Of a stretch of 64,000 bases of DNA, positions 1 through 63,435 are shown one piece after another. The DNA is from Pontibacter arcticus. Lineage in GTDB: Bacteria; Bacteroidota; Bacteroidia; Cytophagales; Hymenobacteraceae. The notes below the pieces were generated by a model, which searched no databases, was not told where the DNA came from, and worked only from the letters and a program-made list of their open reading frames with translations. The stretch is taken from NCBI RefSeq assembly GCF_003284895.1, contig NZ_QMDV01000004.1:436501-500500 (forward strand), in the 5' to 3' direction. The translations under genes and the position numbers were made by a program. The stretch's first letter is position 1, and the number at the start of each line of letters is the position of its first letter.

Positions 1-1040
1 GCGGTGGTGGCCTGGAGCACCTCAACTCCACTACGTTGCAAACTTCCCGTTGGAACTATACTTCGGAGAGTGCCTATAACGGTTTCTTAAGCCTGGTTGC
101 ACACGAGTATTTTCACCTCTGGAACGTAAAACGCCTGCGCCCGGCACCACTTGGGCCCTTTGATTATACCAAAGAAAATTACACGCGCCTGCTGTGGGTA
201 TCGGAAGGAATTACGAGTTATTACGATGATCTGATCGTGCGCCGTGCCGGCTATACAGCCCCGAAGCAGTACCTTGATATTGTGGCCGGAAGTATAAATT
301 CAGTGGAGAACACGCCGGGCAATAAAATTCAGCCGGTGTCCGAGTCCAGCTTTGATGCCTGGATAAAGTACTACCGCCGCAACGAAAACTCAAATAACGC
401 CGAAGTATCGTACTACACCAAAGGAGGTGTTTTAGGGCATCTGCTTAACATGGAAATCATGAAAAGCACACAGGGCGAGAAAAGCCTGGATGATGTGATG
501 CGGGCGATGTATGCACGCTATTACGAAAAGCTGGACCGTGGTTTTACCGAAACCGAATTTAAAGAAGAGCTGGCCAAAGCAGCCGGCAAAAGTATGGATG
601 CGTTCTTTAATGATTTCGTGAACGGTACCAAAACGCCGGATTACAACGCTTACTTTGAGGCAGCCGGTTTACGGGTTACAAACCAGAATGCTAACAGAAA
701 CGAACCAAGTTGGGGAGCCGCTACATCGGTGAGCGCCGGCAAAGTAATGGTAACGGGCGTTAGCCGTGGCTCCAGTGTCTGGGAAGGCGGCCTTAACGTA
801 AACGACGAGATAATTGCAATAAACGGTTACCGCACCGAAAGTGACATCCGTAATGTAGTTGCGGCGCTTAAGATAGGAGAGAAGGCTGAAGTTGTTGTAG
901 CCCGCGACGGTAAATTACAGACCCTGCAGGTACCTATCCTGAAAGACCAAAGTATAAAGTATGTACTTGAGCGCGTAGAGAACCCGACTGCCGTGCAAAC
1001 GAAGATCTACAACAAATGGCTGGGTATAACCGGCTCTTAA
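1..1040 (+). CDS. M61 family metallopeptidase with C-terminal PDZ domain (5' truncated)
   Basis: The reading frame is open from the window edge, so the N-terminal part of the gene is missing. The frame begins with GGGLEHLNSTTL, matching the GGLEH motif that precedes the catalytic site in the M61 glycyl aminopeptidase family. The zinc motif HEYFH (HExxH, nt 102-116) is followed by LWNVKRLRP, and the downstream zinc-ligand glutamate is in VSEGITSYYDD. The last ~110 residues form a PDZ domain (GGLNVNDEIIAING). M61 enzymes are usually secreted or periplasmic aminopeptidases; the signal peptide would be outside the window. It converges on the SIMPL gene, with a shared terminator between them. Confidence 0.93.
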   Translation, partial: GGGLEHLNSTTLQTSRWNYTSESAYNGFLSLVAHEYFHLWNVKRLRPAPLGPFDYTKENYTRLLWVSEGITSYYDDLIVRRAGYTAPKQYLDIVAGSINSVENTPGNKIQPVSESSFDAWIKYYRRNENSNNAEVSYYTKGGVLGHLLNMEIMKSTQGEKSLDDVMRAMYARYYEKLDRGFTETEFKEELAKAAGKSMDAFFNDFVNGTKTPDYNAYFEAAGLRVTNQNANRNEPSWGAATSVSAGKVMVTGVSRGSSVWEGGLNVNDEIIAINGYRTESDIRNVVAALKIGEKAEVVVARDGKLQTLQVPILKDQSIKYVLERVENPTAVQTKIYNKWLGITGS

Positions 1041-1055
1041 AGTTTAAAAACGAAG

Positions 1056-1103
1056 TATAAAAAAGCGGCGCTGCAAGTTAAACTGCAGCGCCGCTTTTTT
1101 ATA
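1056..1103. terminator. Bidirectional intrinsic terminator
   Basis: A perfect 20-bp stem (1056-1075 pairing with 1084-1103) with an 8-nt loop has a GC-rich core, GCGGCGCTGCA, flanked by A-runs and T-runs on both sides. It sits between the convergent M61 and SIMPL genes and would terminate both. Confidence 0.9.
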
Positions 1104-1116
1104 CGTTATACTTTGC

Positions 1117-1848
1117 TTAATCCAGCCTAAAAGACGCGTTAACGACAGCAGTTATTTCTTTTTCGATAGACGAGACATCGTTAATGCCGTAATCCGAGAT
1201 CATATTCGAGTTTACCGGTGTTATCTGGATCACGCCCATCCGGGCATTGGAAATAGGGCCGAGGTCGCTACCGGTTGCTTCTGCTATTTTGCGGGCGCGG
1301 TTCAGCGCATCTTTTGCCGCATCGGCTTGTATCTCGATCTTCAGTTCGGCAAGCTTAGTATAATAGTATTCAGGCGGGTTTACCGAGAAACTGATGCCCT
1401 TGTTAACGAGCGACGTAATATCCAGCGAAACTTGTTTTATCTTGTTCACATCCCCGGATTTTACATCTATACTTTGGTTGGCGGTATAGTACATGATCCT
1501 GCTGGTGGGGTAGCCTTGCTGGCTCATTTCATAAACCGGGTTCAGGTTAATGGTAGTTTGGTTCACGTCTTTATCCGGGAAGCCCTGGCTGGCAATGTAG
1601 GCCAGTACCTGCGGCCGCTGACTTAAAAGCGTTTGATAAGCTACTTCGGCTGTAGGGCCCGATACCTGCAGCGTACCGCGTAAAATACCCAGATCAGATT
1701 GTATTTCGCGTTTGGCGGAGCCGGTTACGGTGATGGTCTGGTTGGCCTGGTCACGTGCTTTCCAGATCATCGTAAAAATAAGCATACAGATGATCAGGCT
1801 CGCGCCTAATATCGCGACCGGTAGTATAAAAGGATTATACTTTTTCAT
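1117..1848 (-). CDS. SIMPL (DUF541) domain protein
   Basis: This 243-residue protein has an N-terminal hydrophobic segment (about residues 9-30, a membrane anchor or signal) followed by an ITVTGSAKREI start typical of the SIMPL/DUF541 domain, which continues to the C-terminus. Features of the family that are visible are the VTGSG-like first strand, a central AYIASQGFPDKDV region and the SALNRARKIAEATG-like helix (here DALNRARKIAEATG). Family members are periplasmic or membrane-anchored proteins of poorly defined, stress-related function. The ATG start is preceded by about 200 bp of noncoding DNA, so it is probably monocistronic. Confidence 0.85.
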   Translation of the reverse strand: MKKYNPFILPVAILGASLIICMLIFTMIWKARDQANQTITVTGSAKREIQSDLGILRGTLQVSGPTAEVAYQTLLSQRPQVLAYIASQGFPDKDVNQTTINLNPVYEMSQQGYPTSRIMYYTANQSIDVKSGDVNKIKQVSLDITSLVNKGISFSVNPPEYYYTKLAELKIEIQADAAKDALNRARKIAEATGSDLGPISNARMGVIQITPVNSNMISDYGINDVSSIEKEITAVVNASFRLD

Positions 1849-2551: not shown

Positions 2552-3976
2552 TTACGGAAATATTCCCAGCGATTCGTAACTCACCCCGATCTTCTCGATG
2601 GCCAGCAGGAAGGCTGCTGTTCTCATGTCTGAGATATTTTTCTGGCGCATCACATTCCTAATTTCATGATACGCATTGATCATCGTATCCTCTAATCCGG
2701 AACGTACCAGGTCAACTTCATCAGCGCCTTGCGTTAACAGAGCTCGCTCCTGGGCTGTTATACTTTTACCGGATGTTAGTTCGATGGCATCTACCAGTTT
2801 ACGGTAGCTGGCTTCTTCGGCACGTTTGCCCATTCTGCCAAAACGCACATTCGACAGGTTTTTAAGCCACTCAAAATAAGATACGGTAACGCCACCGGCG
2901 TTTAAGTACAAATCCGGAATTACGATAATGCCATTGCTTAGCAAAACCTGCTCGGCTTCTCGGGTTACAGGTCCGTTGGCTCCTTCCGCTACTATTTTAG
3001 CTTTGATGTTAGCTGCGTTCTGGTCGTTTATCTGGTTTTCGAGTGCGGCCGGTATCAGGATATCACATTCCATTTCCAGCAAATCCAGTGAATTCTCGAT
3101 GTTCCGGCTGTTCGCGAAGTTCAGAATGGAGCCTGTTTCGGTGCGATGCTTGAAAGCTTCTGCTACATCAATGCCGTCCGGGTTATAAATACCGCCCTCA
3201 CGCTCGGCGATGCCGATAATCAAAGCGCCATCCTGCTGGCAATAGGCCGCAGAATGATAGCCCACGTTACCAAGGCCCTGCACAATAATGCGCTTGCCCT
3301 GCAGGGTGGTGCCTGTTATGCCCGTATCTTTCAGGAGGTCTGTATCCGCTAGTGCTTCGCGTATGCCAAAGTATACGCCAAGTCCTGTCGCATCGGCTCG
3401 CCCTCTGATACCGCCCTGGCCTACAGGTTTACCTGTTACGCAACCCAGCGCATTGGTTTCGCCATATTTTAAAGCCTGATACGTATCGGCTATCCAGGCC
3501 ATTTCGCGGCTGCCTGTGCCGTAATCCGGAGCCGGAACATCTGTTGCCGGGCCGATCAGGTTTTTCTTTATAAGTTCGGCTGCATAGCGGCGGGTAACTT
3601 TTTCGAGTGTTTTAACCGAAGAGGTGCGGGGATTAATTTTAACGCCGCCTTTCGCACCGCCAAAAGGCACATCTACCACGGCACATTTAAAGGTCATCAG
3701 GGTGGCAAGCGCTTTTACTTCGTCCTCATCTACCTGCATGCTAAACCGGATACCACCTTTGGAGGGTAATTTGTGCTGGCTGTGCTGTACCCGGATGCCT
3801 TCGAATACTTCTATCTTGCCATCCACCTCAACAGGAAAAGAAATTTTGTACACGCTGTTGCATGCTTTTATTTGTGCCAGTATACCGGGGTCTAACCTTG
3901 AAAAGCTGGCAGCATGATCAAAAAACTGGTGAACGCTTTCTAAGAATTTACTGCCTTCGTGAGGGTCTGTAGCCAT
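2552..3976 (-). CDS. Glu/Leu/Phe/Val dehydrogenase (glutamate dehydrogenase family)
   Basis: This 474-residue protein interconverts an amino acid, most likely glutamate, and its 2-oxo acid with NAD(P)H. Visible hallmarks are PSKGGIRF (about residues 71-78), the lysine loop PFGGAKGGVKINP (104-116, Lys109), PAPDYGT (148-154) and the Rossmann loop VQGLGNVG (232-239). C-terminal LNAGGVTVSYFEW is also typical. Size fits the hexameric bacterial enzymes. It stands alone; no partner in glutamate metabolism is directly adjacent, although an FMN glutamate-synthase-like gene lies 1.3 kb away on the other strand. Cofactor preference cannot be read with confidence. Confidence 0.93.
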   Translation of the reverse strand: MATDPHEGSKFLESVHQFFDHAASFSRLDPGILAQIKACNSVYKISFPVEVDGKIEVFEGIRVQHSQHKLPSKGGIRFSMQVDEDEVKALATLMTFKCAVVDVPFGGAKGGVKINPRTSSVKTLEKVTRRYAAELIKKNLIGPATDVPAPDYGTGSREMAWIADTYQALKYGETNALGCVTGKPVGQGGIRGRADATGLGVYFGIREALADTDLLKDTGITGTTLQGKRIIVQGLGNVGYHSAAYCQQDGALIIGIAEREGGIYNPDGIDVAEAFKHRTETGSILNFANSRNIENSLDLLEMECDILIPAALENQINDQNAANIKAKIVAEGANGPVTREAEQVLLSNGIIVIPDLYLNAGGVTVSYFEWLKNLSNVRFGRMGKRAEEASYRKLVDAIELTSGKSITAQERALLTQGADEVDLVRSGLEDTMINAYHEIRNVMRQKNISDMRTAAFLLAIEKIGVSYESLGIFP

Positions 3977-4123
3977 ATATCTGAACTTTTTAGTGAGAGA
4001 AAATAACTATCTACTCAACGGTTCCTGTGTTGTTTTGTTCGGGATGGTGAAAGCATACAACATATAAAGGACTCTTTCCCGGGATTTATACTTTATACCA
4101 GCCCAACGTATAAACCAAACAAA

Positions 4124-4159
4124 AACGGGACCTTTAGTATACATACCAAAGGTCCCGTT
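4124..4159 (-). terminator. Intrinsic terminator downstream of the FKBP gene
   Basis: Inverted repeat AACGGGACCTTT / AAAGGTCCCGTT (about 4124-4135 and 4148-4159). On the minus strand it is followed by a T-rich run, so it terminates transcription of the FKBP gene that stops at 4183. Confidence 0.85.
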
Positions 4160-4182
4160 CAAATAGTTTTTTGTGCTTCTGA

Positions 4183-4791
4183 TTAGTTAACCGAGATCAG
4201 TTCAACGTCAAAAACAAGGGCTGCATCCGGTCCGATCACATCGCCTGCGCCTTGCGAGCCATATGCCAGGTTTGATGGGATGAACAGTCGCCATTTAGCG
4301 CCTTCTTTCATTAACTGTAAAGCTTCTGTCCAGCCGGCAATTACGCCGTTAACCGGGAAAGTAGCTGGTTGGCCACGCTCATACGACGAGTCGAACACAG
4401 TGCCATCGATCAGGGTGCCGTGGTAATGTGTGGTTACGCTGTCTTTTGCAGATGGCGATTTGCCGTTACCTTCCTGCAGCACCTGGTATTGCAGGCCGCT
4501 TGGCAATGTTTTTACGCCCTCTTTGTTTTTGTTTTCAGCCAGGAAATCTTCGCCGGCTTTTTTATTCTGTGCCGTTCTGGCGCTTTGTTTCTGGCCCATT
4601 TCCTGCTGTAACGCCATCATGGCCTGCTGCACATCTTCCTGAGAAAGGGTAGAGGCTTTGCCTTCTAAAATCTCTTTGAAGCCCTGCATAAATGGCTCCG
4701 CATCAACTTCTATACCTTGCTTGTATAAATTAGCAGCCATGTCGCGGCCAATAATGTAGCTGATCTTGTCCTGAATTGTCTTTAATTCCAT
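4183..4791 (-). CDS. FKBP-type peptidyl-prolyl cis-trans isomerase
   Basis: 202 residues: an N-terminal helical dimerisation region of the FKBP_N type (residues 1-80, DKISYIIGRDMAANL) and a C-terminal FKBP domain (about 105-202) with YHGTLIDGTVFDSS, VIAGWTEALQLMKEGAK and IPSNLAYG, the conserved active-site segments of FkpA/Mip/FklB proteins. No signal peptide is present at the chosen start, so it is probably cytoplasmic like FklB. It assists folding at proline bonds. It has its own terminator (4124-4159). Confidence 0.92.
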   Translation of the reverse strand: MELKTIQDKISYIIGRDMAANLYKQGIEVDAEPFMQGFKEILEGKASTLSQEDVQQAMMALQQEMGQKQSARTAQNKKAGEDFLAENKNKEGVKTLPSGLQYQVLQEGNGKSPSAKDSVTTHYHGTLIDGTVFDSSYERGQPATFPVNGVIAGWTEALQLMKEGAKWRLFIPSNLAYGSQGAGDVIGPDAALVFDVELISVN

Positions 4792-5285
4792 AGAAATAAG
4801 TTTGGCACCTAACGGCGCTATACACGATTGATTTAGTACGGTGCTTGTACGTTACAAAGCTACGTAAAATGTGCTGAACAGAAAAAGACCGCTTCAGGTT
4901 ACAAATGGCCTGGAGTTTGTGGTAACTGCAGTGCCGCAGCAAACGTACGCTAACGCAGGCCTGTATTTACGCATCGTAAGTATAGGTTATTTCGAAAAGA
5001 AAGATTTACCTTTGCCTTGTAATTCAGCCATCTGTGCAACCATACTTACAAAACATACACGCTTCCGTAGCCTGCACTTCCCTTTCAGGGTTTGTAGCAG
5101 CCTCGCACCACGTCTCTCTCAGTGACGCGCTGAACGGTTATTGCCTGTACTTTTTCTCTGCTCCGAAAGACTTTAACAAGTAAGCCAGAACCACCAAACA
5201 TGCTTTACTAAAGTATAGGTTGTTCTGGAAACAAAGCCTGCATCAGCAAAATCTCTATTTAATAAACTTACATTTTTTCTCAGCT
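4792..5285. other. 494-bp intergenic region; possible promoter and long leader or small RNA
   Basis: No convincing protein-coding frame. A match to the Bacteroidota -7 element TAnnTTTG (TACCTTTG, about 5008-5015) lies about 270 bp upstream of the glutamate-synthase-like start. The downstream segment has small hairpins such as CCCTTTCAGGG and is pyrimidine-rich, so it could be a long 5' leader or a small RNA. A -33 TTG at proper spacing is not evident. The region from 5016 to 5200 matches no RNA family that I can recognise. Confidence 0.3.
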
Positions 5286-6842
5286 ATGGCAACTAACATC
5301 AGTGTTAGGCAAACGCTTGCATATACTTTTTATGCAGCGTATCTGGTTATCATATCGCTTCTAATTGTCGAGCCGCGGGCGGCCTGGGCGTTGGTGGTAC
5401 TTATTCCGCTGCACGTTCTGTATTTCAAGGATATCCGGCAGGGCAAGCATTCCATACTGCGTAACTACCCGGTTTTGGGGCACTTACGCTATCTTTTTGA
5501 AAGTATACGCCCGGAACTGCGTCAGTATTTCTTCGAGTCTGATCTGGATGGCAAGCCTTTCAGCCGACGCCAGCGTTCTATTGTGTACCAGCGTGCTAAA
5601 AATGTGCGCGAAACGGTACCCTTCGGGATGCAGGCCAACAGCCAGGAAACAGGCTTTGAGTGGATGGCCCACAGCATGTTCCCGGTACATATAAAAGACG
5701 AAGACCTGCGCGTAACCGTTGGCAGTAGCCGTTGCAGCCAGCCCTATAGCGCCAGTATCTATAATATTTCTGCCATGAGTTACGGCTCGCTCAGCAAAAC
5801 AGCGGTTACGGCACTCAGCGGCGGAGCCAAACTTGGCGGGTTTGCGCATAATACCGGCGAAGGCGGCGTCAGCCCGTTCCATATTGAAGGCGGTGGTGAT
5901 TTGATCTGGCAAATTGGTACAGGTTATTTTGGTTGCCGCGCAAAAGATGGCAGCTTTTCTGGAGAATTGTTTGCTGAGCAGGTAGCCCACCCGAACATCA
6001 AGATGGTGGAAATTAAGCTGTCGCAGGGAGCGAAGCCAGGCCACGGCGGTATACTTCCGGCTGCTAAAAATACCCTGGAGATTGCGGCTATCCGTAAAGT
6101 AGAGCCTTTTACAACGGTTTCGTCGCCTCCGGGCCACTCCGCTTTCACGGATCAGTTTACGATGCTGTTGTTTATTGAGAAGCTGCGCCTTTTATCTAAC
6201 GGAAAGCCCATCGGGATAAAACTTTGTATTGGTAACAAGCAGGAATTTGTGCGCCTGTGCCAGGAAATGATGCATAACCAGATCTGGCCGGACTTTATTA
6301 CCATTGATGGAGCTGAAGGCGGTACAGGAGCTGCGCCACTAGAGTTTACAGATAGTTTAGGGATGCCTTTGTTTGATGCGCTGGCTTTTGTAAACAATAC
6401 ACTGGAAAAGTATAACCTGCGTAAAGAAATTAAAATTGCGGCGGCAGGCAAGATTATTACCGGTGTAGACATTATCAAAAGTATAGCCCTAGGTGCTGAT
6501 TTCTGCTACAGTGCGCGCGGAATGATGTTTGCCCTTGGTTGTATACAAGCGTTGCAGTGCGATTCTGGCCGTTGCCCTGTTGGTATTGCAACCCAGGATA
6601 AGAGTTTGTACAGCGGTTTGGATGTGGCTGATAAACGCGTGCGTGTGGCAAACTTCCACCGCAATACAATTAAATCAACCATCGAAGTAATGGAAGCTTG
6701 TGGTTTTGCATCGCAGGATGATATTACACCGGATAAAATTTTCCGGAGAGTGGAGCAGGGCAAAACGCTTAGTTTCCAAGAGTTATACTTCTCTAAAAAC
6801 TCTGCAACAGGTACCTTAAGCCAAAACTATGTACTTAACTGA
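5286..6842 (+). CDS. FMN-binding glutamate synthase family protein (membrane-anchored)
   Basis: 518 residues from the ATG at 5286; an upstream TTG would add 22 unlikely residues. Two hydrophobic segments at about residues 8-50 precede a glutamate-synthase central/FMN domain. Visible motifs are ISAMSYGSLS, GEGGVSPFH, the FMN phosphate loop IDGAEGGTGAAPLEF and the cysteine cluster GCIQALQCDSGRCPVG (Cys-x5-Cys-x4-Cys), which binds a 3Fe-4S cluster in GltB. The amidotransferase and GXGXG domains of true GltB are absent, so it is an archaeal/short-type GOGAT-like oxidoreductase rather than a complete glutamate synthase. It nearly abuts the downstream GreA-like gene. Confidence 0.88.
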   Translation: MATNISVRQTLAYTFYAAYLVIISLLIVEPRAAWALVVLIPLHVLYFKDIRQGKHSILRNYPVLGHLRYLFESIRPELRQYFFESDLDGKPFSRRQRSIVYQRAKNVRETVPFGMQANSQETGFEWMAHSMFPVHIKDEDLRVTVGSSRCSQPYSASIYNISAMSYGSLSKTAVTALSGGAKLGGFAHNTGEGGVSPFHIEGGGDLIWQIGTGYFGCRAKDGSFSGELFAEQVAHPNIKMVEIKLSQGAKPGHGGILPAAKNTLEIAAIRKVEPFTTVSSPPGHSAFTDQFTMLLFIEKLRLLSNGKPIGIKLCIGNKQEFVRLCQEMMHNQIWPDFITIDGAEGGTGAAPLEFTDSLGMPLFDALAFVNNTLEKYNLRKEIKIAAAGKIITGVDIIKSIALGADFCYSARGMMFALGCIQALQCDSGRCPVGIATQDKSLYSGLDVADKRVRVANFHRNTIKSTIEVMEACGFASQDDITPDKIFRRVEQGKTLSFQELYFSKNSATGTLSQNYVLN

Positions 6843-6843
6843 T

Positions 6844-7251
6844 ATGAATACCATTTATTTAACCGAGCTGGATTACAAGCGCCTTGTTGACCTTAGCCAG
6901 GTACAGCGTCAATCCAATGGAAATGCTCCTTCGCTTTCAAAACTGGGCGAAGAACTGAAGCGGGCCAAGCGCGTTGCTTCCGAAGAAATCCCATCAGATG
7001 TGATCACCATGAACTCCAGGGTACTGTTAAAGGACCTGGACAAAGGAACTGAGATTGAGATTACGCTGGTATACCCGAAAGATGCAGATATCCAGAGCCG
7101 CCGTATTTCTATACTTGCGCCGGTTGGCACTGCTATACTTGGTTGCAAGGAAGGCGATGTGGTGGAGTGGCCCGTACCTTCCGGTACTATCCATTATAAG
7201 GTTGTAAAAGTGTTGTTCCAGCCCGAAGCGACAGGGGATTATTACCTGTAG
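6844..7251 (+). CDS. GreA/GreB-type (Rnk-like) regulator
   Basis: 135 residues from the ATG at 6844, one base after the preceding stop codon, so probably co-transcribed and translationally coupled. The C-terminal half is the FKBP-like GreA/GreB domain (VLLKDLDKGTEIEITLVYP, then ILAPVGTAILGCKEGDVVEWPVPSG). The N-terminal helix pair is short, as in Rnk (regulator of nucleoside diphosphate kinase) and unlike the long coiled coil of GreA. It would bind RNA polymerase through the C-terminal domain. Why it is coupled to the glutamate-synthase-like gene is unknown. Confidence 0.85.
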   Translation: MNTIYLTELDYKRLVDLSQVQRQSNGNAPSLSKLGEELKRAKRVASEEIPSDVITMNSRVLLKDLDKGTEIEITLVYPKDADIQSRRISILAPVGTAILGCKEGDVVEWPVPSGTIHYKVVKVLFQPEATGDYYL

Positions 7252-7274
7252 CCCAATCTGTAAAAGCCTAAACC

Positions 7275-7312
7275 AAAAGCGCCCTGTACATATGTTTGTA
7301 CAGGGCGCTTTT
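7275..7312. terminator. Intrinsic terminator between convergent genes
   Basis: Perfect 16-bp stem AAAAGCGCCCTGTACA / TGTACAGGGCGCTTTT with a 6-nt loop and T-run in both directions. It ends the Rnk-like gene and also the small membrane-protein gene read from the other strand. Confidence 0.9.
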
Positions 7313-7334
7313 GTATGTTTATACTTGGCGGGTT

Positions 7335-7472
7335 CTATAAATATTGCGTTTCGTCTTCGCCTAGCAAATCTATCGAGGCATCCTGCTCTCTGTAAGCATA
7401 GGTCATGTAAATATAAGCTGCAGCGCCAACTATTAAACATGCAGTTCCGAAGAGGGCTAGTGGTAACTTCAT
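7335..7472 (-). CDS. Small single-pass membrane protein, 45 aa
   Basis: A short open frame encodes 45 residues. It begins MKLPLALFGTACLIVGAAA, one hydrophobic segment, and continues YIYMTYAYREQ into an acidic tail ending in LLGEDETQYL. A purine-rich stretch (AGAAAG) lies just upstream of its ATG at 7472, and a bidirectional terminator lies directly after its stop codon. These features support a real gene even though no family is recognised. The topology is likely N-in or a signal-anchor with the acidic tail outside. Confidence 0.6.
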   Translation of the reverse strand: MKLPLALFGTACLIVGAAAYIYMTYAYREQDASIDLLGEDETQYL

Positions 7473-7552
7473 TTCTTTCTGGTTTTGTTTGTCCTGTCTA
7501 CGTTGGAAGTATAATGTGGTTTTAAACTATTTTGTGATTTGCTGTAAAAGCA

Positions 7553-7578: not shown

Positions 7579-7599
7579 CAATAACAGGTTAAAGTATAA

Positions 7600-18165: not shown

Positions 18166-18167
18166 AC

Positions 18168-55046: not shown

Positions 55047-55092
55047 AGGTTAAAGGTTTTATTGTTTAATAAATAACTCGTAACTCAGAACT

Positions 55093-56379
55093 CTAAAGTG
55101 GTATTTTAGACTGATGCGGATCGAGTGCCGGGTAATTCAGTTCTTCCATCAGTTTTTCTTCCAGTTCGGGTGTGATGATGTGTTCGATTGTTTCTGCGTC
55201 TTCGTGTACGTGGTCGGAGGGGAGTTCTAAGTATTGCGTTAAGTATAATTCCCAAAGCCGGTGTAGCCTCACTACGCGTCTTCCCCGAATCCGGCCTTCT
55301 TCTGTTAGCAGCCAGCCGTTTTGCTGTTTACTTACAAAACCTTCGCATTGAAGTTTTTTTAAGCCTTTCAGGATGCTATTCTGGGGTAGATGGCGGCGTT
55401 GCATCAGCTCGGTTATACTTTGTGCATCTGTAAAATTCTCCTTCAGCTCGCCCACCTGGTAGAGTAACTTAAGAATATTTTCGTCGAGGATGCGGGAACG
55501 GTTGCGGCGCTGGCGAATGATCCGGGATACCCAGCCACGGCCGGGTGCAAACGCAAACGAAAGTATAGCGATCAGGGAAATGATCAATACGATCCAGGGA
55601 CCGGTGGGCATGGAAGGCGCCGTGTAGGAAACAAAAGCTCCCGCCAACCCCGAAAATGCACCCATCACAGCAGCTATCAAAAGCATAACCGGTAATTTCT
55701 CTGTCCAGAAGCGAGCCGCAGCAGCCGGAGTGATCAGCATGGCCGCCATTAATACAACCCCAACCGCCTGTATGCCCACTACCACCGCAAACACTGTAAG
55801 CGTGGTTAAGAGCAGTTCCAATGCCCTCACCGGAAACCCGATGGTACGCGCATAAGCCTGATCGAAACACAGCAGCATTAATTCTTTATAAAAAACGATA
55901 GTAGCCACTAAAAGAAGCACAGCCACCACACTGAAAACAATGAGGTCTTCGCCGACCAGCGAGGCTGCTTTTCCAAATAAAAACTTATCGAGTCCGCTTT
56001 GCGCTGCGTTGCCCGAATGCTGGATGGATGTAAGTAAAAGTATACCGATCCCGAAGAAAACGGAAAGTACCAGGCCAATGGCCGTATCTTCTTTAATGCG
56101 GGTACGGGCCGTAATAAAATCAATAACAACGAGCGAAAACCAACCGGTAATAAAAGCGCCCAGCAAAAGTATGAAAGGGTTTTTTGTGCCCGAAAGTATA
56201 AATGCCAGGCAAACGCCCGGCAGCACGGCATGGGCCACGGCATCGCCTACCAGCGCCCTTTTGCGGAGCAGGCTAAAGCAACCCACTACCGCCGAACTGC
56301 TCGCCAGCAAAATGGAGCCAATCGTAACAAAGCGTACATTGGCATCAGCAAACGAAAAGAATTCCAGGAACTCGTTCAT
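55093..56379 (-). CDS. Metal ABC permease fused to a DtxR-like domain
   Basis: 428 residues. N-terminal ABC-3 permease (about 1-285) with GDAVAHAVLPGVCLAFILSG and seven to eight membrane segments. The last ~140 residues form a DtxR-type HTH and metal-binding/dimerisation region: NILKLLYQVGELKENFTDAQ, LTEEGRIRGRRVVRLHRLWELYLTQYL and HEDAETIEHIITPEL, with metal ligand-type Glu and His. The same architecture is present in the TroC type with C-terminal regulator domain. It overlaps the ATPase gene by 4 bp. The fusion may sense the transported metal at the membrane. Confidence 0.9.
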   Translation of the reverse strand: MNEFLEFFSFADANVRFVTIGSILLASSSAVVGCFSLLRKRALVGDAVAHAVLPGVCLAFILSGTKNPFILLLGAFITGWFSLVVIDFITARTRIKEDTAIGLVLSVFFGIGILLLTSIQHSGNAAQSGLDKFLFGKAASLVGEDLIVFSVVAVLLLVATIVFYKELMLLCFDQAYARTIGFPVRALELLLTTLTVFAVVVGIQAVGVVLMAAMLITPAAAARFWTEKLPVMLLIAAVMGAFSGLAGAFVSYTAPSMPTGPWIVLIISLIAILSFAFAPGRGWVSRIIRQRRNRSRILDENILKLLYQVGELKENFTDAQSITELMQRRHLPQNSILKGLKKLQCEGFVSKQQNGWLLTEEGRIRGRRVVRLHRLWELYLTQYLELPSDHVHEDAETIEHIITPELEEKLMEELNYPALDPHQSKIPL

Positions 56380-57173
56380 TTTACCTGTTTTTCGCGTGAT
56401 GGTATTTCTTGTTTGCGGAGCAGATCGCCTACTTTAGTCAGTACGGTTAGTTTGCCGCCATAGGTTTTTTCGAGCAGTTCCTGTGTCAGTACCTGGTTGG
56501 TTGGCCCGGATGCTACCAGGCGCATATTCAGTAGTACAATCCAGTCAAAGTATTCTACTGCAGATTGCAGATCATGATGTACCACAACCACCGTTTTGCC
56601 TTGTTCGCGCATAATTCGGAGAAGTTCGATAATGGCCATTTCCGTAGCGATATCAACGCCGGCAAACGGCTCATCCATGAAGTAGATATCAGCGTTCTGT
56701 GCCAGTGCCCTTGCCAGGAAAACGCGTTGTTGCTGCCCTCCCGAAAGCTGTGAAATCTGGCGGTTGGCAAATGATTGCATGCCTACTTTTTCGAGTGCCA
56801 GCATGGCTGCTTCCTTGTCGGCTTTACCGGGACGCTTAAACAAACCCATACTTCCGTAGCGGCCCATCAGTACCACATCAAAGGCAGAGGCCGGAAAATC
56901 CCAGTCTACCGATTCGCGTTGCGGTACATAGCTTATCTTTTTACGGACTTCCTTGATTTCTTTATCGAAGATGCGCACGTAGCCGCTGCTGGTTGGCAGA
57001 AGATCCATGATGGCTTTCACCAGGGTAGATTTTCCGGCACCGTTCGGACCGATCACGCCCACCAAAGCACCGGCGGGCAATGTTAAGTCTACGCCCCAGA
57101 GCACAGGTTTCCGATCATAACTTACCGTCAGGTCATGTACTTCTACTACCGGATTCTCAACATGTATAATCAT
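56376..57173 (-). CDS. Metal ABC transporter ATP-binding protein
   Basis: 265 residues. Walker A GPNGAGKST, signature LSGGQQQR, Walker B DIYFMDEP and H-loop VVVHHDLQ are complete. It powers uptake of manganese, zinc or iron through the two permeases. It starts 4 bp after the binding-protein gene's stop codon, and its stop overlaps the fused permease start by 4 bp. Confidence 0.94.
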   Translation of the reverse strand: MIIHVENPVVEVHDLTVSYDRKPVLWGVDLTLPAGALVGVIGPNGAGKSTLVKAIMDLLPTSSGYVRIFDKEIKEVRKKISYVPQRESVDWDFPASAFDVVLMGRYGSMGLFKRPGKADKEAAMLALEKVGMQSFANRQISQLSGGQQQRVFLARALAQNADIYFMDEPFAGVDIATEMAIIELLRIMREQGKTVVVVHHDLQSAVEYFDWIVLLNMRLVASGPTNQVLTQELLEKTYGGKLTVLTKVGDLLRKQEIPSREKQVK

Positions 57174-57177
57174 AGAT

Positions 57178-58095
57178 CTACTTTAAAGCTGCTACTATAA
57201 TGCGGACATTATACTTTACCATACCGATGTAAGTGCCTTCGGGTGTGCCGGCTGCGCCCAGTGCATCGGCATACAATGTACCGCCGGTTTTAACAATGTG
57301 GCCTTTCTGGCGGCTGCCTTCCTGTACTGCTTCGATGGCTTTCGGGGATACCGAGGACTCTACAAACACCGCTTTTATTTTGTTTGCTACAATGTAATTT
57401 ACCAGCGATGATACATCCTGCAGTCCGAATTCCGAAACTGTGGAAATACCCTGCAGGCCGCGCACTTTTATTTTATAAGCATCACCAAAATAACCGAAGG
57501 CATCATGGGCTGTTATTAAGATGCGTTGCTGAACCGGTATCGCTGCTATTTCAGTTTTTACCAGGCTATCCAGTTGCGTGAGCTGCTGTAAGTATAAAGT
57601 TGTATTTTGTTTATAAAGCGCAGCGTTGGCAGGGTCTTTCTTTTGGAGTTCTTCGCTGAGGTGCTGTACGACCAGTTGCCAGAGCGCTACATCAAACCAG
57701 ATATGCGGGTCGTGGTTCTGGGAGCCATCGCCAAGCTGCCTGAGTTGGTTTTCAGGAATGTTTTCGGTGGCGGCTACAACGGTTTTAAGCCGGCTGAGTT
57801 TTTCGAGTACTTCGCCCATTTTGCCTTCCAAATGCAGGCCATTGTAAACGATTACATCTGCCTCAGTCAGCTTATTCAGGTCGCCTTGTGTAGCTTTGTA
57901 GAGGTGCGGATCAACGCCGCTGCCCATCACGGCTTCCACATCGGCGGCATCGCCTGTAATGTTTTTGACAGCATCCGCCAAAATGCCGGTAGTGGTAATT
58001 ACCTGCATGCGCTCCCCGGGTTTTACGGGTCCTTTGTCTACAACCTGGGTGCAGGCCGAAAGAAGTATAAACAGAAAGAGGAGCAGGGTTTTCAT
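57178..58095 (-). CDS. Metal-binding lipoprotein of the ABC transporter (TroA/MntA-like)
   Basis: 305 residues. Lipoprotein signal MKTLLLFLFILLSAC (lipobox LSAC). A cluster-9 solute-binding fold with ligands in SGVDPHLYK, NHDPHIWFDV, AFGYFGDAYK and a C-terminal ADALG. The His-rich loop typical of ZnuA is missing, which favours manganese or iron over zinc. It follows the regulator gene by 11 bp and precedes the ATPase by 4 bp. Confidence 0.9.
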   Translation of the reverse strand: MKTLLLFLFILLSACTQVVDKGPVKPGERMQVITTTGILADAVKNITGDAADVEAVMGSGVDPHLYKATQGDLNKLTEADVIVYNGLHLEGKMGEVLEKLSRLKTVVAATENIPENQLRQLGDGSQNHDPHIWFDVALWQLVVQHLSEELQKKDPANAALYKQNTTLYLQQLTQLDSLVKTEIAAIPVQQRILITAHDAFGYFGDAYKIKVRGLQGISTVSEFGLQDVSSLVNYIVANKIKAVFVESSVSPKAIEAVQEGSRQKGHIVKTGGTLYADALGAAGTPEGTYIGMVKYNVRIIVAALK

Positions 58096-58106
58096 AGTAT
58101 AACGGC

Positions 58107-58763
58107 TTAAGCCGACAGGAAAATGTTTCTGGAAGCTTCGCTGGAGAGCACCATACTTTTGGTTTCGTTCAGCATAATTTCCATGGAGTTATCGTACGCA
58201 ATTTTATCCAGCACCTGTATGGAACTGCCCAGACCAATGCCCATTTTATCGAGGTACTGCAGAAAAAGCGGCTGCGAATCGTTTACGCCAACCACACGCC
58301 CAACAGTGCCAACTTCCAACTCGGCCAGCAGCTTTTGTTTTTTCTGTTTCATCTGGCCGCTTTCGGAAGGAATCGGGTCGCCGTGCGGATCGAACTGCGG
58401 AAAAGCCAGAAACTCATCCAGGCGCTTTACCAGCAATTCAGAAGTAATATGTTCGAGTTCTTCGGCTACTTCGTGTACTTCGTCCCAGCTGAATTTCAGT
58501 TTATCTACCAGGAAAACTTCCCAAAGCCGGTGCTTCCGGATGATCTGCAAAGCAATGCGCTCGCCTTCTTCTGTAAGCGAGACACCTTTATACTTTACAT
58601 AATTGGCAATGCCCTTTGTGCCGAGTTTCCGGAGCATATCTGTTACAGAGGCGGCTTTGGTGTTCAGCGCTTCGGCAATGGCATTGGTATTTACTTCCTG
58701 CGTACTGTTAACCGACAGTTTGTAAATGGCTTTAATGTAATTTTCTTCGGTATGGCTATGCAC
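58107..58763 (-). CDS. DtxR/MntR family metalloregulator
   Basis: 218 residues, longer than MntR because it includes a C-terminal FeoA/SH3 domain (about 145-218). The N-terminal HTH is HSHTEENYIKAIYKLSVN with NAIAEALNTKAASVTDMLRKL. Metal site residues are in HEVAEELEHITSELLVKRL. First gene of the operon, so it probably represses its own operon when metal is plentiful. Its start is 15 bp after a strong inverted repeat. Confidence 0.92.
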   Translation of the reverse strand: MHSHTEENYIKAIYKLSVNSTQEVNTNAIAEALNTKAASVTDMLRKLGTKGIANYVKYKGVSLTEEGERIALQIIRKHRLWEVFLVDKLKFSWDEVHEVAEELEHITSELLVKRLDEFLAFPQFDPHGDPIPSESGQMKQKKQKLLAELEVGTVGRVVGVNDSQPLFLQYLDKMGIGLGSSIQVLDKIAYDNSMEIMLNETKSMVLSSEASRNIFLSA

Positions 58764-58777
58764 GTTAGATAATTAAG

Positions 58778-58827
58778 AATTATGAATTACGAATTAAGAA
58801 TGAGATCCTAATTCGTAATTCATAATT
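58778..58827. repeat. Perfect 19-bp inverted repeat of AATTACGAATTA units
   Basis: 58778-58796 and 58809-58827 are exact reverse complements (AATTATGAATTACGAATTA). The loop is 12 nt. The arms consist of about 9-bp near-repeats of GAATTAx. It separates fabH from the metalloregulator. Confidence 0.75.
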
Positions 58828-58848
58828 GTAAATTCGGAATTCAAAAAC

Positions 58849-59847
58849 CTACCAGCGGATTAAGGCAGAAGCCCAGGTAAACCCACTGCCAAATGCGGCC
58901 AGGCAAACCAGATCGCCTTCTTTAATGCGGCCTTCCTGTACGGCTTCGCTCAGCGCAATCGGAATAGAGGCTGCAGTGGTATTGCCATACTTTTGAATAT
59001 TACTGAAAACATTCTCAGCAGGCAGGCCCATTTTCTGTTGTATAAAAGAGGTAATGCGCAGGTTTGCCTGGTGCGGAATCAGCATGTTGATATCCGAAGA
59101 CTGGTACCCGTTTTTGTTCAGGGCTTCTTCAATCACTTCCGGGAAACGGGTAACAGCGTGCTTAAATACCACATTACCGTTCATGTAAGGATATACGCTG
59201 CCATCGTCGATCATCTCGTGGGTCAGGCGGTCTTTTTTATTTGAGTTAGGTGCCGTTACAGCCAGTTCTTCGGCAAACTCGCCATCGGCATGCAGGTGCG
59301 TGGAAAGTATACCGGAGTTGTTATCGGCAGCAGGTGTTAAAACAACCGCGCCGGCGCCGTCTCCGAAAATAACCGAAACCCCACGGCCACGATCCGAGAA
59401 ATCCAATCCGCTGGAGTGTATCTCAGAACCCACCACCAGAATGTTATTATACATGCCTGTTTTTATGAACTGATCAGCTACCGAAAGGGCATATACAAAG
59501 CCAGAGCATTGGTTACGGATATCCAAAGCCGGAATCTCTTTCAGGCCCAGTTCGCGCTGCAACAATACACCGGAGCCTGGGAAAAGGTAATCCGGGCTAA
59601 GTGTAGCAAACACGATCATATCCAGGTCAGTGGCTTGCAAACCAGCCATTTCCAGGGCCTTGCGCGAAGCATTGGCAGCCATATTGGCGGTAGTATCTTT
59701 GCCTTCCTCAAAATAACGACGCTCCTGTATACCCGTTCTTTCCCTGATCCACTCATCAGTGGTATCCATCAACTTCTCCAGGTCTTTATTTGTAACTACA
59801 TTATCAGGAACGTAGTGGCCGGTACCGGCAATTTTAGAATTACGCAT
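58849..59847 (-). CDS. fabH: Beta-ketoacyl-ACP synthase III (FabH-like)
   Basis: 332 residues. Catalytic triad is Cys114 in RNQCSGF, His259 in IPHQANLR and Asn289 in YGNTTAAS. TGIQERRYF and GSGVLLQRELG are other FabH signatures. It condenses acetyl-CoA or another acyl-CoA with malonyl-ACP to begin fatty acid synthesis. It is not next to other fab genes, so it may be a paralogue with branched-chain or special primer use. Confidence 0.93.
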   Translation of the reverse strand: MRNSKIAGTGHYVPDNVVTNKDLEKLMDTTDEWIRERTGIQERRYFEEGKDTTANMAANASRKALEMAGLQATDLDMIVFATLSPDYLFPGSGVLLQRELGLKEIPALDIRNQCSGFVYALSVADQFIKTGMYNNILVVGSEIHSSGLDFSDRGRGVSVIFGDGAGAVVLTPAADNNSGILSTHLHADGEFAEELAVTAPNSNKKDRLTHEMIDDGSVYPYMNGNVVFKHAVTRFPEVIEEALNKNGYQSSDINMLIPHQANLRITSFIQQKMGLPAENVFSNIQKYGNTTAASIPIALSEAVQEGRIKEGDLVCLAAFGSGFTWASALIRW

Positions 59848-59938
59848 AGTATTTAGCTATTTATAGATTTCAAATATACTGATTATCGTGAGATTTAGAT
59901 TTGCCTAAAAATATTTTTTTCAAAGATATCGTTTGATT

Positions 59939-61066
59939 TCAGTTGATTAAATTTGAGATCAACGGTACTAATTTCTGCTCTTCGGATTTCCAGAATACGT
60001 CATCCGGAATCCCATACTGATAAAAAAGCTGCTGTTGCAACTGATTTAAAACTCCGGCAGCACCTGCAGTGGCAAAATCTATACTTATACCCGCCTTATA
60101 CTGCTTTACCAGTTGGTTCCAGAACGGATTTTCCTGTATTAAGATAGGTAAACCATGCGCTGCATACTCAAATAACTTGGTTGGGATGCATCGGAACGTA
60201 CTTTCGTTGGGCTGGTAGGGGAGCAGGCCGAGGTTACATTGCTGTATTTGCGCAAGTATAAGTTGGTGTGGTACAGGTTCAGAACCGCCTATCAGTTTAA
60301 TGTAAGGCTTGTTTTTTGTTGCCTGAAGTACACGCTGCCAGGTTGTTGCTTTTGCGCAATAACCAATAATGGTGAGCGTGATATCGGGTTGCTGTTGATA
60401 GAATTTTTCTGCCCATATTATCGCTTCGAAAATGCCATACTCTGCTGCAATAGTGCCCGCATATAAAAGCTGTAAGGGTGTGTTTCGCAATGAAACCGGC
60501 AGTTGCCTTTGCTGTAAAGTATAAACCGCTTTATACTTGTTTTCAAGGATCGTATAGTTGTTGGGCTTCAGAAAAGGAAGTTCATCTGCATAACTGCGCT
60601 CTGCCAGAAAATAATGATCTATACTTTTGGCCAGCAGCTTTTCCATACTTCGAACGCCAAACGCAAGTATACTTTTTAAAACCGGCGGATAATTTTGCTG
60701 GGCTTTCAGGTTGAGGGCGTAATTTTCCTGTACATCATACACCAGTTTGCAGCTATACTTCCTTTTGTAAAGTGCAGCCGGCAGCAGAAGCTCGTGGGTA
60801 CAAACGATGATCAGATCAGGCTTTAGTTGCCTTAATAACCTGTAAAATTGCTGCTGCGCTGTTATCCTACCAAAACTGAGGCGCCTGAATCTGAAAACAG
60901 GATGAAAAAATACAGCAGAATTCTCGGGAATAAAGTCTGTATGAAAACCGCATATATGCACTTCTGTGCCTGGTAACTGGCTCAGCGACAGCCCGATCTT
61001 TTCGAACATGCGGGTGTCGGTAACCGGTTTGAGGAGTGAAGCAAGCAGGATTCTCTTTTCAGACAT
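59939..61066 (-). CDS. Glycosyltransferase family 4-like protein
   Basis: 375 residues. GT-B fold with KRILLASLLKPVTDTRMFEKI at the N-terminus and a C-terminal domain with LLYAGTIAAEYGIFEAIIWA, ITLTIIGYC and TKLFEYAAHGLPILI (EX7E-like region IPTKLFEYAAHGLP). It transfers a sugar to a cell envelope acceptor of unknown type. Divergent from dapD, with a 49-bp gap. Lone gene. Confidence 0.85.
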   Translation of the reverse strand: MSEKRILLASLLKPVTDTRMFEKIGLSLSQLPGTEVHICGFHTDFIPENSAVFFHPVFRFRRLSFGRITAQQQFYRLLRQLKPDLIIVCTHELLLPAALYKRKYSCKLVYDVQENYALNLKAQQNYPPVLKSILAFGVRSMEKLLAKSIDHYFLAERSYADELPFLKPNNYTILENKYKAVYTLQQRQLPVSLRNTPLQLLYAGTIAAEYGIFEAIIWAEKFYQQQPDITLTIIGYCAKATTWQRVLQATKNKPYIKLIGGSEPVPHQLILAQIQQCNLGLLPYQPNESTFRCIPTKLFEYAAHGLPILIQENPFWNQLVKQYKAGISIDFATAGAAGVLNQLQQQLFYQYGIPDDVFWKSEEQKLVPLISNLIN

Positions 61067-61115
61067 TGGTTAAATTTAATACTTTTGCCTGATCATATAC
61101 AAACCCAACCCAGAC

Positions 61116-61928
61116 ATGGAACTTAAACAAATAATAGAGCAGGCGTGGGAAGACCGCAATCTGTTAAAAGAAAATACAACTGTAGACGCAATTCGCGCTG
61201 TAATCGAAGACCTTGATAAAGGCAGAATACGTGTAGCCGAACCGGTAGGAGATGAGTGGCAGGTAAATGAGTGGGTGAAGAAAGCCGTACTTTTATACTT
61301 CCCGATCCAGCAGATGCAGACCATAGAAGTTGGCCCGTTCGAGTTTCATGATAAGATGAGCCTGAAAAATAACTATGCAGCCCTTGGCGTGCGTGTGGTG
61401 CCTCATGCTGTGGCCCGTTACGGTGCTTACCTGGCAAGTGGCGTGATCATGATGCCTTCTTATGTAAACATTGGCGCTTACGTGGATTCGGGAACGATGG
61501 TAGATACGTGGGCAACAGTTGGTAGCTGCGCACAGGTTGGCAAAAACGTACACCTGAGTGGGGGCGTTGGTTTAGGCGGTGTGCTGGAGCCGGTTCAGGC
61601 TGCTCCGGTTATCATCGAAGATGGCGCTTTTATTGGCTCCAGAAGTATACTGGTAGAAGGTTGCCGCATTGGTAAAGAAGCCGTAATCGGGGCTGGCGTT
61701 ACCATAACCGGAAGCTCCAGAATTATTGATGTAACCGGTTCTGTGCCAAAAGAGTACCGTGGCATCGTACCGGCGCGTTCGGTAGTAATTCCGGGTTCGT
61801 ATACCAAGAAATTTCCGGCAGGCGATTTTCAGGTGCCATGTGCCCTTATCATTGGCCAGCGCAAGGAAAGCACTGATTTAAAGACTTCTTTAAACGATGT
61901 ACTCCGCGACCATGCGGTAGCTGTTTAA
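61116..61928 (+). CDS. dapD: Tetrahydrodipicolinate N-succinyltransferase (DapD)
   Basis: 270 residues. A helical N-terminal domain (ELKQIIEQAWEDRNLLKENT) is followed by a left-handed beta helix of hexapeptide repeats (VNIGAYVDSGTMVDTWATV, GVGLGGVLEPVQ, IEDGAFIGSRS). It makes N-succinyl-2-amino-6-oxopimelate in lysine and peptidoglycan precursor synthesis. No other dap gene is nearby. It is followed by a terminator. Confidence 0.96.
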   Translation: MELKQIIEQAWEDRNLLKENTTVDAIRAVIEDLDKGRIRVAEPVGDEWQVNEWVKKAVLLYFPIQQMQTIEVGPFEFHDKMSLKNNYAALGVRVVPHAVARYGAYLASGVIMMPSYVNIGAYVDSGTMVDTWATVGSCAQVGKNVHLSGGVGLGGVLEPVQAAPVIIEDGAFIGSRSILVEGCRIGKEAVIGAGVTITGSSRIIDVTGSVPKEYRGIVPARSVVIPGSYTKKFPAGDFQVPCALIIGQRKESTDLKTSLNDVLRDHAVAV

Positions 61929-61933
61929 TTGCT

Positions 61934-62099
61934 AATTGTTGGTTGTTGAATTGCTAATCATCAGTTGTTTTCAGTGACTGAATTTAAACCAAGTATAAAC
62001 AAAAGCGCCTTTACCAGCTAGCTGGTAAAGGCGCTTTTGTTTTAGATAAGCTGCTATTAAACTAGATTTTAGCAAGCAACAATTCAACAATCAACAATT
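61934..62099. repeat. Inverted AATTGTTGATTGTTGAATTG repeats flanking a terminator
   Basis: 61934-61953 is matched, with one mismatch, by the reverse complement of 62080-62099. They frame the dapD terminator and the end of the hydroxybutyryl-CoA dehydrogenase gene. Confidence 0.65.
62001..62038. terminator. Perfectly palindromic bidirectional terminator
   Basis: AAAAGCGCCTTTACCAGCT and its complement form a 19-bp stem without a loop (38 bp palindrome). T-runs on both sides, between dapD and the convergent dehydrogenase gene. Confidence 0.9.
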
Positions 62100-62991
62100 A
62101 ATTTTTCTTGAAACGGTCGGCTACGATCAGTTCTTTTGTGCCATGCGACCACGAATAGAAACCCTGACCAGACTTGATGCCTTTGTGGCCGGCCTGCACC
62201 ATATTTACCAATAATGGGCAAGGCGCATACTTTGGATTTCCGAACCCGTCATGCAGCACGCGAAGTATGGAAAGGCAAACATCCAGGCCAATAAAATCTG
62301 CCAGTTGCAAAGGCCCCATCGGGTGCGCCATTCCTAATTTCATGATCGTATCGATCTCTTCAACACCGGCAACGCCCTCGTATAAACTGTAAATAGCCTC
62401 ATTTATCATCGGCATTAAAATGCGGTTGGCCACAAAACCAGGATAATCGTTGCACTCGGTAGGCACCTTGCCCAGCTGTTTTGATATCTCCATGATCTGC
62501 GTAGTCACCTCATCCGAAGTAGAGTAGCCACGGATAATTTCCACCAACTTCATAACCGGAACCGGATTCATAAAGTGCATCCCGATCACTTTATCCGGGC
62601 GGTCTGTAACCGAAGCAATTTTGGTGATAGAGATGGAAGAAGTGTTGGAAGCAAGTATAGCTTCCGGTTTGGCAAAGCTGCTCAGGTCGCGGAAAATCTT
62701 CAGTTTCAGGTCCACGTTTTCGGTGGCTGCTTCTACTACAAGGTCGGCTTCCTGCACACCTTCCTGCATGCTGGTAAAGGTGGTAATATTTGTTAAGGTC
62801 TGTTGTTTCTGATCTTCGGTAATGGCGCCTTTTGCTACAATGCGATCCAGGTTTTTAGCGATGGTGCCAAGTGCTTTCTGCAAAGCTTCTTCTGAAATAT
62901 CAATAAGGGAAACCGAAAAGCCATTCTGTGCAAAAACGTGGGCAATTCCGTTGCCCATGGTGCCGGAGCCGATAACTGCAACTTTTTTCAT
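62098..62991 (-). CDS. 3-hydroxybutyryl-CoA dehydrogenase
   Basis: 297 residues. N-terminal NAD-binding domain KKVAVIGSGTMGNGIAHVFAQ, catalytic region GMHFMNPVPVMKLVEII with His and Asn, and C-terminal 3-HAD domain (DYPGFVANRILMPMINEAI). Shorter than FadB, so it is a free-standing dehydrogenase. It could act with the MaoC hydratase and IcmF in short-chain acyl-CoA pathways, but it is not in an operon with them. Confidence 0.94.
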   Translation of the reverse strand: MKKVAVIGSGTMGNGIAHVFAQNGFSVSLIDISEEALQKALGTIAKNLDRIVAKGAITEDQKQQTLTNITTFTSMQEGVQEADLVVEAATENVDLKLKIFRDLSSFAKPEAILASNTSSISITKIASVTDRPDKVIGMHFMNPVPVMKLVEIIRGYSTSDEVTTQIMEISKQLGKVPTECNDYPGFVANRILMPMINEAIYSLYEGVAGVEEIDTIMKLGMAHPMGPLQLADFIGLDVCLSILRVLHDGFGNPKYAPCPLLVNMVQAGHKGIKSGQGFYSWSHGTKELIVADRFKKN

Positions 62992-63435
62992 AGATGATCA
63001 AACTAAGTATGATGATAGTATAAATACAAAGCTAAGATAAAATCCAGAAATCAATGCCCGAATAAAAAGCGCTCTTAAAAGACTTCAACTTTGCAGATAT
63101 TTTAGAAATGATTTAGTAAAAACAATTTTAACAACTTCATAAATATAAAAGTTAATTAAAATTTAAAAATATATCCATAGTATAAAAACAAACCAGCTGT
63201 ATTTCAAGTATGTATGCCTATATTCTGATTCGGGTTTTTATCGGGAACAGGGGTTTAAAGAGATGTTTTATTTAAATCAAAGCTTTTTTTTAAATCTTTT
63301 AAATCGATATTCCGTTAGAAGCTACAACTTAAAAATACAAAAACGAAAAAGTAAGGTCGCTGAACCTGATGCTTGTTACAACACCCTTTTAAACTGTACA
63401 CAGCAGGAAAGCACTTACAAAAAACAAAAACTACT
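62992..63435. other. AT-rich intergenic region, 444 bp
   Basis: Holds AAGTATG and AGTATAA words and no convincing gene or hairpin. A 64-aa frame at 63263 looks spurious. Upstream of a small membrane-protein gene pair. Confidence 0.5.

Follow-up and report, generated by a model that had tools for sequence, protein, structure and literature searches.

An iterated, non-palindromic octamer with graded dialects in Pontibacter: a putative DNA uptake sequence

The window analyzed here, a 64-kb stretch of the Pontibacter arcticus genome (contig NZ_QMDV01000004.1, positions 436,501–500,500), is studded with the octamer AAGTATAA, which has the core AAGTATRR. The word is probably a DNA uptake sequence (DUS) for natural transformation, similar to that of Neisseria but placed in another phylum and acting without type IV pili. 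Among the mechanisms considered, uptake-driven accumulation best explains the non-palindromic form of the word, its strand symmetry, its tolerance inside genes, its scarcity in mobile DNA and its graded dialects, in a genus that has retained comEC, dprA and a ComEA-like gene. The original prediction, made from the window alone, had assigned the word no role; a specific and testable one, which it had not named, can take that place. To our knowledge, no uptake-sequence system has been described outside Neisseriaceae and Pasteurellaceae, and Pontibacter would be the first.

Abundance, form and placement of the word

Exactly 90 copies occur between positions 290 and 61,998 of the window, 45 as AAGTATAA on the forward strand and 45 as TTATACTT on the reverse strand, and they run through genes and gaps alike. 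The original prediction of about 90 copies in both orientations starting at 290 was accurate, except that its span ended at 63,190 and the last copy lies at 61,991–61,998. Expectations were calculated from Markov models of orders 3 and 5, trained either with the word in place or after masking AAGTATRR; the masked models predict 4.3 (order 3) and 7.8 (order 5) copies in the window. A contiguous 464-kb sample, consisting of 400 kb upstream of the window and the window itself, contains 725 copies, compared with 32.4 and 61.6 expected from the masked models and 79 and 525 from the unmasked ones. The unmasked order-5 expectation is circular because the word itself makes its own hexamers common; the count is 12-fold above the masked order-5 model and only 1.4-fold above the unmasked one. 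At order 3, and with either masked model, the count is not near the expected value, consistent with the original prediction. The whole genome (3,771,860 bp in 7 contigs) contains 5593 copies (2747 + 2846 on the two strands), and the reversed word, used as a control, occurs 134 times (62 + 72).

Further counts in this section refer to the 464-kb sample unless otherwise stated. The degenerate form AAGTATRR is present 1246 times (93 expected), about once per 370 bp. The last two bases of the word are loose, as seen for AAGTATAG (207 versus 35 expected), AAGTATAC (166 versus 67), AAGTATGA (138 versus 26) and AAGTATGG (176 versus 32). Variants altered in the first six bases mostly stay close to their expected counts. 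The flanks of the copies show one mildly A-biased base on each side and otherwise no conserved sequence. Copies are distributed almost evenly, with a mean of 7.83 and a variance of 9.4 per 5-kb bin. Same-strand neighbors less than 60 bp apart are in excess (82 versus 40 on opposite strands) and include 11 overlapping pairs at 7-bp spacing.

Gene models were the longest non-overlapping open reading frames (ORFs) of at least 90 aa, uncurated. Inside ORFs, 405 copies were counted in 407,537 bp (0.99 per kb; 47 expected); between ORFs, 304 were counted in 56,463 bp (5.38 per kb; 48 expected), and 16 more straddle ORF boundaries. The density is highest in convergent gaps (9.17 per kb), followed by tandem (5.43) and divergent (3.46) gaps. 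The intragenic copies are read 191 times in sense and 214 times in antisense. Their commonest frames are those that had been singled out before, Ser-Ile (98 of the 405, sense) and Ile-Leu (91, antisense), and the only rare frame is the one that reads an in-frame stop (10 of the 405). In most of 23 short convergent gaps, the words flank or sit within terminator-like hairpins as judged by eye. One example in the window is the converging pair of AAGTATAA (1053, plus strand) and TTATACTT (1106, minus strand), which surrounds such a hairpin, also identified by eye, between convergent ORFs (1053–1113).

The two strands carry the word equally in the whole genome (P 0.19) and in the sampled contig (378 versus 347, P 0.27). 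In 20 sampled blocks of G030, a genome with a variant word (AACTATRR, see below), GC skew is uncorrelated with the words (r 0.18, P 0.45) and individual blocks are uneven between strands, for example 27 versus 57. The test for a strand bias along the replichore of the type known for Chi and the FtsK-orienting polar sequences (KOPS) came out negative in both the 464-kb sample and the G030 blocks, apart from a slight excess on the G-rich strand of G030 (see below).

Dialects across Pontibacter

Fifty Pontibacter genomes, the P. arcticus genome included, were surveyed, and a dialect was assigned where the lead word reached 2246 exact copies or ATATATRR reached 7864. The word or a graded variant of it is present in 40 of the 50, at 2246–8208 copies each. 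Twenty-two genomes are dominated by AAGTATAA (2246–7030 copies), 12 by AGGTATAG (2823–5222) and five by AACTATAG (6288–8208); one, G069, has 7864 copies of ATATATRR, compared with 289–1227 in the other 49. All follow the frame NNN-TAT-RR, in which TATRR is constant and the 5′ triplet is AAG, AGG, AAC or ATA. AAGTATRR, AGGTATRR and AACTATRR are non-palindromic, and ATATATRR alone is near-palindromic. Dialects can be mixed: three AAG genomes also contain 907–2617 AACTATAG, and one AAC genome contains 2125 AAGTATAA. The remaining ten genomes (G002, G007, G024, G025, G026, G028, G033, G036, G064 and G068) have no clear word, with at most 1201 AAGTATAA each; G007 and G036, where sampled, have a slight excess of mixed words. 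The order's other families, sampled in 22 genomes, have AAGTATAA counts equal or close to those of the reversed-word control.

Several other repeats were observed in these genomes. In the G030 blocks (L260–L279), 698 AACTATAG were counted, and in 101 instances the word and its complement overlap to form the dyad AACTATAGTT. G020:C1:1944098-1946633 carries, among the matches listed, about 40 AGGTATAG spaced by 64–69 bp; this cluster resembles an array of the clustered regularly interspaced short palindromic repeats (CRISPR) type, whose repeat carries the word of a sister dialect. The G026 sample contains TTAGAATAATT-like repeats, and the G069 sample contains CCGTAGCC 24 times per about 100 kb in addition to ATATATRR. 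Outside Pontibacter, CTAGGCCA is found 16 and 15 times per 21 kb in loci of Hymenobacter fodinae and H. wooponensis (L034 and L058), some copies at matching places in the two species, and reaches at most 540 copies per genome across 160 sampled genomes of the family. Three further Hymenobacter loci (L032, L036 and L040) contain AAAAGCCCCC-type words, several of them as close inverted pairs in L036 and L040; these look like terminators more than a dispersed tag.

Named species were compared at mnmE (52,064–53,443, minus strand), which served as the anchor gene. The MnmE of the window is 85–89% identical to those of 19 named Pontibacter species, and the next genera reach at most 70% among the best 80 loci, which places the window in Pontibacter. 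Among the 19 mnmE loci (up to 21 kb each), nine are rich in AAGTATRR, five in AGGTATRR and one in AACTATRR (62 AACTATAG in 21 kb), and four have none, one of which (L009) shows a weak mixed excess. Two trees were built, a midpoint-rooted tree of 20 taxa from 10 kb of syntenic sequence and an mnmE-only tree with outgroups; support values were not read for either. The 10-kb tree unites the five AGG species in a single clade adjoining P. ruber (AAG) and joins the AAC strain to the window sequence. The AAC strain pairs in the mnmE-only tree with P. vulgaris, which has AAG plus some AAC. The wordless P. beigongshangensis and P. qinzhouensis are the first Pontibacter branches in the mnmE-only tree; the 10-kb tree has them next to P. 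ruber and the AGG clade. The dialects thus appear to cluster broadly on the trees, which disagree on the position of P. roseus (see below).

The syntenic stretch at 52,000–62,600 allowed dialects to be compared in place in the 19 named loci; L004, L011 and L016 lack the part at about 54–58 kb. Tracing covered 147 distinct sites at which AAG species have AAGTATRR and set aside cells with alignment gaps; the cells share ancestry and are not independent. Of the 435 cells of AGG species at these sites, 32 hold the AGG word (nine distinct sites) and none holds the AAC word. The AAC strain carries the AAC word at eight of 92 comparable sites. Word-poor species have the AGG word in four, the AAC word in one and AAGTATRR itself in 13 of 349 cells. 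Controls with other AAG-xxx-RR cores, each with only 5–12 sites, gave in-place switching in 0 of 55. As judged from these alignments, some of the sites have switched dialect in place.

Mobile DNA and the transformation machinery

An integrated element or satellite with a tyrosine integrase (50,125–51,261) occupies 45,261–51,910 on the minus strand of the window. It contains two copies of the word (at 50,912 and 51,333), where the coding and intergenic rates predict 10.6 (P 0.0016), and two AAGTATRR compared with 17.9, which bears out the depletion that had been noted for it. Most of the satellite lies within a word-free gap (45,004–50,911) between the copies at 44,996 and 50,912. This gap is the longest of the 724 in the 464-kb sample, over which 0.07 gaps of such length are expected by a random-spacing estimate. 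A similar contrast had been suggested for an McrB-like cassette (26,308–31,236, minus strand), which encodes a DUF2357 and PD-(D/E)XK protein, an MrcB_N protein and a PLD-like protein; it was thought to have about three copies. Four exact copies are present compared with 5.0 expected by class (P 0.45), so that the contrast is weak, and with six AAGTATRR versus 13.2 expected depletion is not clear. A low-G+C island upstream of the window (G000:C4:369700-379246) has four words compared with 11.6 expected (P 0.01); by eye it resembles a type I restriction-modification locus. The integrated element adjoins the 3′ end of mnmE (45,261–53,443 for the two together), and DNA resembling its integrase end occupies the same place in four other loci (L004, L008, L010 and L014), so the 3′ side of mnmE may be a recurrent integration site.

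Depletion extends to the second contigs of three near-complete AAG genomes. Four words were found in G021:C2 (all 74 kb counted; 76.3 expected), five in G001:C2 (80 of 116 kb; 55.4 expected) and 19 in G020:C2 (120 of 204 kb; 53.9 expected), ten of the last within one 20-kb stretch. A fourth, 5.9-kb contig (G031:C4) has none compared with 4.9 expected; two stretches of G002:C2 lie outside this plasmid-type count. The chromosome samples of the same genomes are not depleted (P 0.16 to 0.99). Judged by size and assembly, the depleted second contigs are likely plasmids, and the plasmid-like contigs are depleted about 3- to 19-fold. Together with the satellite, the word-poor second contigs of the three AAG genomes agree with the original view of the word as a host signature that foreign DNA lacks.

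ComEC (PF03772) and DprA (PF02481) have matches in all 50 Pontibacter genomes, and a helix-hairpin-helix (HhH) ComEA-like protein of about 304–346 aa has an intact frame in 49 of the 50 among the matches listed. Three genomes have damaged frames: G009 and G022 have lost both comEC and dprA to breaks, G022 has a broken HhH gene as well, and G018 has a frame-shifted comEC. Both dprA breaks thus fall among the three comEC breaks (P 0.0024, calculated post hoc). Sampled loci of these genomes (four in G022, two in G009 and one in G018) have ORFs of normal length, so pervasive sequencing error is unlikely. The joint loss at distant loci suggests that comEC and dprA function together and are selectively kept in most species.

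No full-length type IV pilus or type II secretion ATPase (PF00437) was found in the 50 genomes, in which up to 31 candidates each were scored; pilins themselves were not searched. Only about 40–65 of the 370 profile positions were matched, around the Walker motif, and the hits in three genomes that scored just over the cut-off are also short. Control genomes matched in 14 of 14, 13 of them above the cut-off. Since no full-length pilus ATPase was found, a ComP-type pilin machinery is not expected. Pilus machinery with a pilin receptor characterizes the known uptake sequences but does not belong to the concept itself. The comEC and HhH gene neighborhoods of P. arcticus, judged from ORF starts and with no family search made, show no evident receptor-like partner.

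Uptake and its alternatives

The word had been likened to HIP1, the highly iterated palindrome of cyanobacteria, in which case methylation-guided mismatch repair would make and maintain it. The density is comparable and the spread host-wide; HIP1, too, is a very frequent word that is low in some relatives, where alternate HIPs replace it (PMC4390886, in excerpt). According to the same excerpt, the alternates swap among cyanobacteria, each with a methyltransferase, and HIP1 varies mostly at its outer bases, as the Pontibacter word is looser at its last two. The likeness is superficial, since HIPs are palindromes tied to matching methyltransferases and their alternates are different GC-rich palindromes (PMC4390886, in excerpt), whereas the Pontibacter word is non-palindromic in three of its four dialects, which are graded variants of a single NNN-TAT-RR frame. 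Repair should moreover deplete near-miss words, yet these stand at 0.95–1.53 times expectation. The plasmid-like contigs would share the cytoplasm and are nonetheless depleted, for which short residence could account. Non-palindromy, graded dialects and undepleted near-misses are marks of DNA uptake sequences, and a HIP1-like drive is unlikely. A little less likely again is a binding site for an abundant chromosome-organizing or recombination protein (nucleoid-, Chi-, KOPS- or Noc-like) whose specificity has diverged. Such a site could be spread over the genome and scarce in plasmid-like contigs; the dialect shifts would fit any coevolving DNA-binding protein, and the slight excess of words on the G-rich strand of G030 (615 versus 547, P 0.049) points the same way. 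Strand symmetry in genome and contig and the lack of a GC-skew correlation speak against Chi and KOPS, and the near-even 5-kb counts oppose a regional signal. There is also no known mechanism by which a protein site would spread thousands of exact intragenic copies, and ten species manage without a clear word.

The higher density between ORFs than inside them, its peak in convergent gaps and the neighboring hairpins could reflect a part of transcription terminators or other gene-end signals. As an explanation of the word itself this is very improbable, given that 405 of the 725 copies are intragenic and almost balanced between sense and antisense, and that divergent gaps still contain 3.46 per kb. 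Known uptake sequences are also used at terminators. Least credible of all, to the point of being negligible, is a compositional accident or a dispersed mobile repeat. The word is AT-rich and there are a few close tandem pairs, but the 12-fold excess over the masked order-5 model and the flanks without conserved sequence argue otherwise, and the genome count relative to the reversed word, the dialect counts and the masked model refute it.

Several observations weigh against an uptake function. The G030 strand excess is one of them. The mnmE-only tree pairs P. roseus (AGG) with P. ruber (AAG), away from the other four AGG species, and within the AAG group only 180 of 796 cells retain the word in place; most sites are lineage-specific, so word turnover is high. 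Control genomes also match comEC (10 of 14) and dprA (11 of 14), so the presence of these genes is no proof of competence. Machinery does not imply a word either, because none of the ten word-poor genomes has a stop in its comEC or dprA row. Both genomes with two or more broken genes keep the word, with 2537 AAGTATAA in G022, whose word density is the second lowest of the 22 AAG genomes, and 5041 AGGTATAG in G009; the joint breakage alone does not link these genes to the word. Tried as a decay clock for G022, the near-miss cloud gave no clean signal: its excess (0.53) resembles the values of two genomes without a flagged break, G031 (0.50) and G020 (0.75). DUF5689, of the Riemerella RS04920 type, was rejected as a receptor, being present in 22 of the 50 genomes and not tracking the word; its neighbors at four loci are SusD- or TonB-porter-like by eye, and other hits fall in proteins of about 1100–1300 aa. 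No receptor was found among the candidates examined, and no report of competence in Pontibacter was found among the matches listed.

Known uptake sequences come from two proteobacterial families and are read by type IV minor pilins, shown for ComP and predicted for Pasteurellaceae, as far as the excerpted sources describe. The DUS of Neisseriaceae comprises eight dialects around an invariant CTG with up to 5918 copies; two dialects can share one genome, and the core-genome tree is congruent with dialect (PMC3630211, in excerpt). The Pontibacter word resembles it in its thousands of intragenic and extragenic copies, in dialects that share an invariant core, and in coexisting dialects and overlapping dyads, the AACTATAGTT dyad of G030 resembling those of Simonsiella (PMC3630211, in excerpt), and mobile elements in Neisseriaceae are likewise betrayed by atypical DUS content (PMC7371117, in excerpt). 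It differs in its unrelated motif, which is built on NNN-TAT-RR and has no CTG core, in its occurrence in Bacteroidota and in that no full-length pilus ATPase was found. The uptake signal sequence (USS) of Pasteurellaceae is also an iterated non-palindromic word. It is a different word. A type IV minor pilin is predicted to be its receptor (PMC12616744, in excerpt). Riemerella belongs to the same phylum as Pontibacter and requires ComEC, DprA and an HhH protein, which the HhH protein of Pontibacter resembles and which is needed in Riemerella anatipestifer (PMC8459023, in excerpt). Riemerella columbina prefers its own DNA, which competes whereas foreign DNA at equal dose does not, but the excerpted report gives no true uptake word, only A/T-rich k-mers as candidates (PMC7965970). 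Transformation is impaired in TonB mutants of R. anatipestifer, an effect that the authors partly credit to iron supply (PMC8383284, in excerpt). No report of such a motif in Pontibacter or Bacteroidetes turned up among the matches listed from the open-licence PMC literature.

Under an uptake function, Pontibacter species would be competent, the word would raise DNA uptake and a non-pilus receptor would read it. A surface or periplasmic DNA receptor may recognize the short non-palindromic tag during natural transformation, and fragments that bear it would be preferentially taken up and recombined. Because tagged DNA would be favored, copies would build up on both strands at any place that tolerates them, and slowly in new arrivals. 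Imported DNA would then pass the ComEA-like HhH protein, ComEC, DprA and RecA. Within Pontibacter the specificity of the receptor may have shifted, with TATRR kept and the 5′ triplet changed to AAG, AGG, AAC or ATA, which would give rise to dialects and partial sexual isolation.

The broader proposal, toward which the evidence tilts by a modest measure, is that Pontibacter takes up self DNA in a pilus-independent, sequence-specific manner with at least four dialects, reads the word with a new kind of receptor in Bacteroidota, which might be a TonB-dependent porter acting with a surface lipoprotein, and has species that are sexually isolated by dialect. Dialect-bearing uptake sequences offer the clearest example of bacteria marking their own DNA for gene exchange. 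If the proposal is true, such a series of dialects in Bacteroidota with no pilus ATPase would represent an independent origin and would predict DNA receptors of a new, sequence-reading class, and the 50 genomes would constitute a natural experiment on the start, switching and loss of an uptake code. The word is also a marker of foreign islands in Pontibacter genomes and may offer a route to making Pontibacter transformable.

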